From Bacteroidota bacterium (GTDB lineage: Bacteria; Bacteroidota; Bacteroidia; Chitinophagales; Chitinophagaceae): a DNA stretch of 64,000 nucleotides. The stretch covers positions 248,001 to 312,000 of the forward strand of contig VGFK01000003.1 of assembly GCA_016868895.1 (NCBI GenBank). Reading direction: 5' to 3'. The notes under the pieces were generated by a model. The model did no database searches. It saw nothing but the letters and a program-made list of their open reading frames with translations, and had not been told where the DNA came from. Of this stretch, positions 28,289 through 30,028 are shown one piece after another (the stretch's first letter is position 1; each line of letters starts with the position of its first letter). A program made the translations under genes and the position numbers.

Positions 28289-30028
28289 TCAGTAATCCAG
28301 GTCCAGGTTCAGTCGTTCTTTCAATTCGTTTACGATAGGATACTTGCCGACCAGTCGGATGAACTGGTCCTTTTTTGAAAGCACCTGTTCTTTGACAGGT
28401 GCAGCCTCGTCTGCCTGGGGATCCAGCTGCAGGCTGATTTGGATCTTGGGATTGTTGAACCATTCTTGCAGGTGAAGGGTGAGTCCCGTTTTTTCAGCTT
28501 CAATAAACTGCAGTTGAACGCGGTTGTCGGCCATTACTTCCAATACATGTTCCTCAGTGATATTCACCCGGGCATCTTTGAGGTTGTGATGACTGGTGAC
28601 CTGATTATTCGCTGTGAGCCGTTCCAGGTATGCCGACCAGGCTTCTTTAACCGGTTCAGCCGAAAGCGGAAGAACGGTGGCAACCTCTTTTTTCCGGTTT
28701 TGGATCTGGTCGCGGATTTTCTTGAGGGCGCCTATGCCTGCTGCAGGAGGAATGGGACGATCGGGTTCTGCAGGGGCTGACGGTTGATGGTTGACTGGGG
28801 TGGGAGCTGGAGGAGTGGCCGGGGGTACAGCCGGTTGGGGGTGTGGACGAAAACCTATGGCACGAAATGCCACAGGTTTCATCTCATCCAGTCGTTTTTT
28901 TTTTGAACCGCTTTCTTCAGCCACCAGGGTAACCGCTTGCTGCAAGTAGTTCAACTTGATGAGATGAAATTCAACGTGCAGTTTTTTGTTTCGTGCCGAC
29001 TTATATCCAATCTCTGCCTCATTCAGTATGCTCAGTGCACCAATGACATAAGCAGTGGAAAGTGAACGAGCGGCTTCCATGTATCTGGTTCTGAATCCAT
29101 CCATCACCTGCAGCAGTGGAACGGATCGTTCATCTTTGCTGACCAGTAGATTTCTGAAAAATTCACTGAGCGATCCGAGCAGCATATCTCCTTCAAATCC
29201 CTTTGTATCGATTTCATCAACAAGCGACAGCACGGAAGGAAGATCTTCCTGTATCAACATATCGAGCAAACGAAAGAAATAATCTTCATCCAAAGCATTG
29301 AGGTGTTCAAGCGTGTTGGAATACGTGAGGTTTGAATGGGTGAAGCTTACAATTTTATCCAGAATGCTCAAGGCGTCCCGCATGCATCCATCGCATTTTT
29401 GTGCAATGATTTGCAATGCTTCCGGCTCTGCCTGGATGCCTTCTTTTTGCGCAATTTCTTGCAGGTGTGCCACCACAGCAGCTGGGGTGATGCGCTTGAA
29501 ATCAAATATCTGACAACGGGAAAGAATGGTCGGAAGAATTTTATGTTTTTCAGTGGTAGCCAAAATGAAAATGGCATGTGCAGGGGGTTCTTCCAATGTT
29601 TTTAAAAATGCATTGAATGCAGATGCGCTGAGCATGTGGACCTCATCGATGATATACACTTTATAGCGGCCGGACTGCGGTGCAAACCGAACCTGCTCGA
29701 TCAGCTCCCGTATATCGTCGACGGAATTATTGCTCGCGGCATCCAACTCGTGTACATTGAATGTAGATCCGCTTTCAAACGAAACACAGGAACTGCAGGT
29801 GTCGCAGGCCTCACCTTCTGGCGTAATGTGTTCGCAGTTGATTGTTTTGGCAAGGATGCGCGCACACGTTGTTTTGCCTACGCCCCGTGGACCGCAAAAC
29901 AAAAAGGCATGTGCCAGGTGTTGTTGCAGGATTGCATTCTTGAGGGTGGTCGTGATGTGTGATTGTCCCACCACACTTGAAAAGTGCTGCGGCCTGTATT
30001 TGCGGGCGGAGACAACAAAATTTTCCAT
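28289..30028 (-). CDS. dnaX: DNA polymerase III subunit gamma/tau DnaX
   Basis: DnaX is the ATPase of the clamp loader; full-length tau also tethers polymerase cores and the helicase. The 579-residue protein has Walker A in FCGPRGVGKTTCARI (about residues 41-55), a zinc module with CDTCSSC, Walker B and the DEVHML box, and the sensor SRCQIFDFKR. The collar domain ends near residue 370, followed by a Pro/Ala-rich linker and the tau-specific C-terminal domain. Exactly at the collar-linker boundary the coding strand has ten consecutive A (codons 375-378) and a downstream stem-loop, so a shortened gamma form of about 381 residues is predicted. It is divergent from glpK. Confidence 0.96.
   Translation of the reverse strand: MENFVVSARKYRPQHFSSVVGQSHITTTLKNAILQQHLAHAFLFCGPRGVGKTTCARILAKTINCEHITPEGEACDTCSSCVSFESGSTFNVHELDAASNNSVDDIRELIEQVRFAPQSGRYKVYIIDEVHMLSASAFNAFLKTLEEPPAHAIFILATTEKHKILPTILSRCQIFDFKRITPAAVVAHLQEIAQKEGIQAEPEALQIIAQKCDGCMRDALSILDKIVSFTHSNLTYSNTLEHLNALDEDYFFRLLDMLIQEDLPSVLSLVDEIDTKGFEGDMLLGSLSEFFRNLLVSKDERSVPLLQVMDGFRTRYMEAARSLSTAYVIGALSILNEAEIGYKSARNKKLHVEFHLIKLNYLQQAVTLVAEESGSKKKRLDEMKPVAFRAIGFRPHPQPAVPPATPPAPTPVNHQPSAPAEPDRPIPPAAGIGALKKIRDQIQNRKKEVATVLPLSAEPVKEAWSAYLERLTANNQVTSHHNLKDARVNITEEHVLEVMADNRVQLQFIEAEKTGLTLHLQEWFNNPKIQISLQLDPQADEAAPVKEQVLSKKDQFIRLVGKYPIVNELKERLNLDLDY
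28851..28904 (-). promoter_or_regulatory. Predicted dnaX frameshift/slippage signal: A10 run plus stem-loop
   Basis: The coding strand reads TCA followed by nine more A (positions 28904-28895), giving S-K-K-K in frame. A -1 slip, or one extra A in the mRNA, gives T-T-G then TGA (28886-28884). A +1 slip or one A fewer stops at TGA (28881-28879). Fifteen nucleotides further on, 28879-28868 pairs perfectly (one G-U) with 28862-28851 around the loop UUUCG, 12 pairs in all, followed by U. This is the arrangement of known dnaX recoding sites. Confidence 0.7.

Follow-up and report, generated by a model that had tools for sequence, protein, structure and literature searches.

The dnaX gene of the Bacteroidota bacterium considered here contains an uninterrupted run of A residues at the point where the coding sequence passes from the clamp-loader collar to the linker. 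The question raised by this locus is whether the run serves to make both gamma and tau from one gene and, if so, whether it is the RNA polymerase or the ribosome that slips. A first-pass annotation had predicted a programmed site in dnaX but left the mechanism open, stating that the run "could use either". The window, i.e., the whole stretch of DNA that was analysed, is 64,000 nucleotides long, and its relevant features are as follows.

28289–30028, minus strand: dnaX, DNA polymerase III gamma/tau, 579 aa, tau in frame 0 (open reading frame, NCBIfam and solved-chain match)
28895–30028, minus strand: segment common to gamma and tau, ATPase and collar domains, residues 1–378 (NCBIfam and solved-chain matches)
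28292–28894, minus strand: tau-only segment, Pro/Ala-rich linker and C-terminal part (a homologous tail lies in the shifted frame of relatives with the reversed layout described below)
28895–28904, minus strand: A10 run, predicted RNA-polymerase slip site, codons 375–378, S-K-K-K (sequence; kept in relatives)
28884–28886, minus strand: TGA that would end gamma after one A added (−1 frame), giving ...KKKTTG (sequence)
28879–28881, minus strand: TGA that would end gamma after one A lost or two added (+1 frame), one loss giving ...KKNDWMR (sequence)
28844–28890, minus strand: downstream stem-loop of 20 pairs with a 4-nt bulge, −26.9 kcal/mol (minimum-energy fold), present in this genome and partly in its nearest relative; role uncertain

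NCBIfam names the encoded protein DNA polymerase III subunit gamma/tau. As computed from the sequence, tau would have a mass of 64.8 kDa, and the predicted gamma would comprise 381 aa (42.5 kDa) with the C-terminus KKKTTG. The run stands in the context TCA AAA AAA AAA CGA, its ten A residues being the last base of codon 375 plus codons 376–378, and both its length and its place at the collar/linker junction agree with the earlier annotation. The end of the collar was placed by sequence matches to solved chains, one of the two being very weak: in this alignment (E 9.1), with a DnaX chain which we take to be that of E. coli, the junction falls at about residues 370–373, close to where the gamma chain of 1jr3 (373 residues) stops. 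Since E. coli gamma extends to residue 431, the earlier statement that the break lies where gamma ends in known systems holds only roughly.

The whole-genome count showed no other A10/T10 anywhere in the 1.75 Mb. On both strands together there are 20 A9 windows, two of them within the A10, which leaves 18 other A9 sites, and the chance of an A9 or longer run in a given 330-nt sense stretch is about 0.2%. As stated in the accessible part of PMC1088944, at length nine selection against slippage is visible in a large proportion of bacterial genomes.

To see the run in its relatives, dnaX loci were collected from the genus and order (56 loci from 55 of 60 genomes, the gene being missing or cut in the other five), from a GTDB-phylum draw of 158 genomes with 156 dnaX matches, where 70 were analysed (the 30 best and 40 picked down the list), and from a scan of named genomes, where the best 80 of at least 594 matches were taken. 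The named genera include Chitinophaga, Terrimonas, Pedobacter, Hymenobacter, Rufibacter, Dyadobacter and Chryseobacterium, and the assignment of the genomes in the genus, order and phylum sets to Bacteroidota rests on these named relatives. Removal of five cut loci and of two duplicate entries (L087, L097) brought the total from 206 to 199, among which a species may occur in two of the sources. The longest A-run of the junction window was 9–13 nt in 166 of the 199 distinct uncut loci (A9 in 43, A10 in 109, A11 in 12, A12 and A13 in one each; hence 9–11 in 164), and 3–7 nt in the remaining 33, with length 8 in none; as related genes share ancestry, these are not counts of independent events. 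No such two-humped pattern was found in the T, G and C runs of the junction windows. Outside the junction, A9 or longer runs were met only twice in about 355 kb of dnaX loci, besides the junction runs of two cut loci.

Broken down by set, runs of at least nine were present in 52/53 loci of the genus and order, 36/37 of the same class in the phylum draw, 18/31 outside the class and 60/78 of the named genomes. Relatives with AAG codons or without the run had been named in advance as the case that would count against the prediction; within the genus, A9 or A10 was kept in 31 of 32 uncut loci, the exception being L020 (genome G032) with an A7. In two further genus loci the gene is truncated, before the junction in L030 and directly past an A10 in L028, and the junction letters of L029 and L084 are identical. 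The other families of the order have A9–A11 in 21 of 21 uncut loci, and the single same-class miss in the phylum draw, L105, belongs to the same order and carries only an A7; in both run-less genes of the order the A7 is in phase. In L020 both off-frame stops are still near, at 1 and 3 codons, which looks like the recent loss of a single AAA codon. The 18 run-less loci of the named set are titled Bacteroidales, its families or genera, or only "Bacteroidia" or "Bacteroidetes". In the lineages of the 33 run-less genes gamma may be dispensable, or it may be made otherwise.

The annotated off-frame stops were also found in the window: the −1 frame meets TGA three codons after the run, and the +1 frame, expected to stop within six codons, does so after 4. 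Among the 123 run genes with tau in frame 0, a −1 stop lies within six codons in all 123 (mean of codon shuffles 42%) and a +1 stop in 100 (mean 30%), both figures being outside all 200 codon shuffles; two +1 outliers, at 20 and 85 codons, were retained in these counts. A like picture was obtained for 103 less redundant genes with 500 shuffles (100% and 80%, respectively). Each of the three codon phases is represented among the run starts of the same 123 genes (37/45/41). Taken together, the conservation of the run, its position and the near off-frame stops make the comparison across related Bacteroidota strongly positive, thus strongly supporting the prediction of a programmed gamma/tau site in dnaX.

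Furthermore, the run genes fall into two layouts. Tau is in frame 0 in 123 of the 166, the long frame lies in −1 in 40 and in +1 in 2, and the tail is cut in 1. The culturable relatives Terrimonas ferruginea (L117, A9) and Chitinophaga terrae (L120, A10) share the layout of the window gene. In the 42 genes of the reversed layout, frame 0 yields gamma, and tau is encoded in the shifted frame: its tail was recognised by homology in 40 of them, always in the shifted frame (39 in −1 and one, L111, in +1), and L065 and L072 gave no tau-tail match in this test. The window protein matches both the 397-residue NCBIfam gamma/tau model NF011516 and the 620-residue NF011515, each below its cut-off; the short model may, as a guess, derive from reversed-layout genes annotated without tau.

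These data bear on the simplest alternative, namely that there is no recoding and the lysine-rich patch at the start of the linker just happens to use AAA codons. Lysine is indeed written more often as AAA than as AAG in these dnaX genes (AAA being on average 67% of lysine codons, and 78% in the window gene), but such usage fits poorly with the only A10 of a genome, with a gap at length 8, with runs in all phases and with off-frame stops beyond the range of the shuffles, and it leaves 42 genes with a long frame that is unreadable without a shift. We consider this explanation highly improbable for the window, and as a general reading it is already contradicted by the counts.

Another alternative is a replication-slippage switch, where the run length would vary between cells (phase variation) and thereby toggle tau. 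Of the genes with unlike layouts, L231 (A9, tau in −1) and L232 (A10, tau in frame 0) form the closest pair; a single A separates their runs, and there are other changes as well. This is in line with such a switch, and also with programmed slippage. However, runs are 9–11 nt long in nearly all of the 166 genes, in either layout a single slip leads from one product to the other, and dnaX is expected to be essential, so that a switch of this kind appears very doubtful. With a slip level near one half, a layout change by one A costs little, according to the remark on dnaX in the accessible text of PMC5009743.

The best explanation, to which we assign a probability of about 80%, is that the A10 run is programmed for transcriptional slippage. 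The RNA polymerase would slip on it, giving dnaX mRNAs with 10 A residues along with mRNAs bearing other counts. Those with 10 A residues, or with a number differing from 10 by a multiple of 3, would direct the synthesis of tau, and translation of the remaining ones would hit a stop within 3–4 codons to yield gamma ending just past the clamp-loader collar. We infer from the comparison that slippage takes place in this species at a level close to one half, and that the cell makes gamma and uses it. On the mechanism that the earlier annotation left undecided, the comparative evidence favours RNA polymerase, because the run obeys a length threshold with all codon phases allowed, because both off-frames appear to be under selection, and because of the place of RNA structure: stem-loops are enriched at the 5′ edge of the run, and 3′ ones at the distance used in ribosomal frameshifting are not.

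Uninterrupted stem-loops (≤−4 kcal/mol) ending 0–3 nt before the run occur in 22 of 109 non-redundant genes, as compared with a control mean of 3.5% (maximum 7.3%), whereas those starting 5–9 nt past the run are rarer than the background (0.6 vs. 2.1 genes per position). Examples of the 5′ type are L127, whose stem has ten pairs, and L080, whose stem has nine; each includes one G-U pair. Stem-loops of differing sequence abutting the 5′ side within about 25 nt of the run were seen in these two genes as well as in L126, L148, L067, L085, L116 and others. In family f24 of the class, the stem holds eight pairs despite base changes (L116 vs. L112), and in L110, L113 and L114 of the same family it is absent. 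The 32-nt windows ending at the run fold better than their shuffles (mean z −0.76, s.e. 0.11, 133 genes); this signal fades within 16 nt upstream, and a z of −0.47 is again found in one window 32 nt up. For 45-nt windows starting 0–20 nt downstream there is a weak folding tendency (z −0.32 to −0.49 vs. −0.08 to −0.35 farther away), thus allowing a possible minor role of RNA structure on the 3′ side.

The window gene itself is a counterpoint to slippage by RNA polymerase: a stem-loop abutting the 5′ side of its run was looked for and none was found, but a strong one is present on the 3′ side, which is a better fit to ribosomal frameshifting. The annotated 12-pair stem-loop with a UUUCG loop 15 nt past the run does exist, but the minimum-energy fold has 20 pairs and starts 4 nt after the run. 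Its z-score is −5.8; none of 200 shuffles folds as well, and an equal fold appeared in 8 of 5,000 synonymous recodings and in 8 of 14,212 windows taken across the 64 kb, a count that includes those overlapping the stem-loop itself. It ranks first by z-score among 80 sampled downstream folds, a sample into which it was deliberately put. The first-pass annotation stressed this element as a part of the site, but it is not conserved: the nearest relative, L002, has the same fold in a weaker form (−15.4), and in the other 29 genus loci the fold was sought and not seen, alternative folds of −3.4 to −19.7 being found there. The window stem-loop may be due to chance or may be a local addition acting on ribosomes. 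As a conserved stimulator, a downstream stem-loop was rejected for the set, being unconserved in the genus and unenriched, and was kept open for the genome of the window.

Programmed −1 ribosomal frameshifting would imply that ribosomes slip back on A_AAA_AAA with the help of the 3′ stem-loop and stop at the TGA three codons on. Besides the very strong window stem-loop 4 nt past the run, this is in line with the −1 stop being always near, with the long frame lying in −1 in 40 of the 42 reversed genes, with an excess of Shine–Dalgarno-like motifs upstream (10/133 vs. 2/133 in the control), and with the slippery heptamer A_AAA_AAG, which 19 of the 40 genes encoding tau in −1 have in phase, so that a ribosomal part is possible in that group. 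Yet the heptamer is in phase in only 15 of the 123 tau-in-frame genes and not in the window, where A_AAA_AAA is followed by CGA; an A7 would suffice for ribosomes, but the runs have at least nine residues and none has 8; and L111 has its tau in +1. The close +1 stops also count against a purely −1 ribosomal shift, because such a shift needs no +1 stop. Shine–Dalgarno-like motifs are few in the set, none of those searched for was found upstream of the run in the window, and Bacteroidia ribosomes are reported to be blind to Shine–Dalgarno sequences in the part of PMC9976891 available. With 3′ stem-loops behaving across the set as described above, we regard ribosomal frameshifting as an unlikely, though not negligible, explanation of the window site.

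Transcriptional slippage at an A-run in dnaX is a kind already known. The nearest precedents for the window gene are the Thermus thermophilus dnaX and the two-ORF genes found with GeneTack, as far as the accessible texts describe them. In T. thermophilus, slippage at A9 operates on tau encoded by a single ORF with an A-run of slip length, and near stops in both other frames yield gamma (PMC1088944, PMC5009743, in their available parts). The window shares both marks, having a run of more than nine A residues and stops 3 and 4 codons away in the two non-zero frames, enriched over codon shuffles in its relatives. In distinction from Thermus, the run of the window gene lies directly after the collar, about two-thirds through the gene, and slippage, measured in Thermus, is here predicted from comparison of genes. 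The GeneTack study, in the text available, lists 17 two-ORF dnaX genes from 12 genera, nine of them with A10, and proposes transcriptional realignment for the synthesis of tau (PMC3711429). Those genes correspond to the reversed layout of our 42 genes, while the window has tau in frame 0; the accessible text covers genes that need a shift for tau, with no 5′ stem-loop described, whereas the majority here are single-ORF genes.

The likeness to −1 frameshifting in E. coli dnaX consists in the same pair of products, the shift onto a near stop and the downstream stem-loop of the window gene. In contrast to E. coli, A_AAA_AAG is unfavoured in the tau-in-frame genes, upstream Shine–Dalgarno-like motifs are few, the stem-loop is unconserved and the run is longer than needed. 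A nascent-RNA stem-loop adjacent to the 5′ side of the slip site is a known stimulator of polymerase slippage in the Roseiflexus IS, as given in the available part of PMC5009743. A stem-loop likewise abuts the slip site in the 22 dnaX genes mentioned above, the window gene not being one of them; in the IS the site is T5C5 and a base is deleted, and here it is an A-run. A-runs of this kind slip without stem-loop help in Thermus, for which the accessible text mentions no stem-loop. The literature searched, which included few subscription papers, yielded no description of the breadth of the A-run, its length gap, the 5′ stem-loops or the layout switches; a search for a dnaX gamma/tau frameshift in Flavobacteri- gave no match, one for dnaX slippage in Bacteroidetes gave PMC3711429, and among the matches listed for a wider search with group names none concerned dnaX or slippage.

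In one uncultured Bacteroidales family, that of L173, the A-run is often replaced by another element. Loci from 50 of its 97 genomes with a match (30 best and 20 picked for short frames) were joined by L238 and L240 from other genomes to make 52; L173, L161, L177 and L176 are the same genes as L237, L238, L239 and L240, respectively. The TAG element was found in 29 of the 52 (L238 included), A9–A11 with a short frame 0 in 12, and a long frame with neither device in 6; the rest comprise L259, where the element is shortened, L240 and L285, which lack any known motif and have their long frame in +1, and 2 cut loci.

dnaX junction, TAG element: L237–L239, L241–L252, L256–L258, L260, L261, L263, L265–L267, L269–L273

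The 29 TAG genes lack the A-run and have an invariant in-frame TAG directly past the collar, followed by AT(T/A)GCNAG. An ungapped comparison gives a column identity of 0.97 for TAG plus the following 8 bases, as against 0.52 for the 60 bases upstream and 0.57 for the 35 downstream. Of the 12 genomes tested, 6 have the 11-mer TAGATTGCAAG in dnaX, and in 5 of those nowhere else; in the other 6, where dnaX has a variant, it is absent in 4 and found elsewhere in 2. The frame-0 tail after TAG is 186–254 aa long and matches the tau tail in 28 of the 29 genes, all in frame 0, L273 giving no match in this homology test. These tails terminate in TGA (20), TAA (6) or TAG (3), so that TAG is not simply a sense codon in these genes. 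Probably, UAG readthrough gives tau there, and termination at UAG gives gamma. Rfam at gathering thresholds gave no match for six TAG-element loci, and since RNAalifold on 24 elements returned no consensus pairs, we claim no fold for the element. L259 has a shorter relative of the element, and its tau tail lies in another frame, as might result from decay of the element or from faulty assembly. At the junction of L240 and L285 the long +1 frame runs past a frame-0 TAA with neither A-run nor TAG element, either through another type of shift or through an error. Stop-codon readthrough in Bacteroidales was not found among the literature matches listed. Gene callers halting at the first stop codon would miss tau both in the reversed and in the TAG genes.

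The evidence from the window and its relatives leads to a broader proposal, for and against which we see about equal odds: that most Bacteroidota, in the wide GTDB sense, use polymerase slippage at A9–A11 to make gamma and tau, helped in many lineages by a stem-loop in the exit channel, that the layout flips between lineages, and that UAG readthrough replaces slippage in many members of one Bacteroidales family. In this set, polymerase slippage could be measured at many natural slip sites, some of which have a 5′ stem-loop and some of which lack one. The need for gamma has long been argued, mostly from E. coli (PMC5009743, in its available part, and general background). If one slip motif, present in two layouts, maintains the two products across a wide group, with readthrough apparently taking its place in one family, then selection would be keeping both. 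In other words, if the proposal is true, making both gamma and tau matters more to these bacteria than the route by which they are made.
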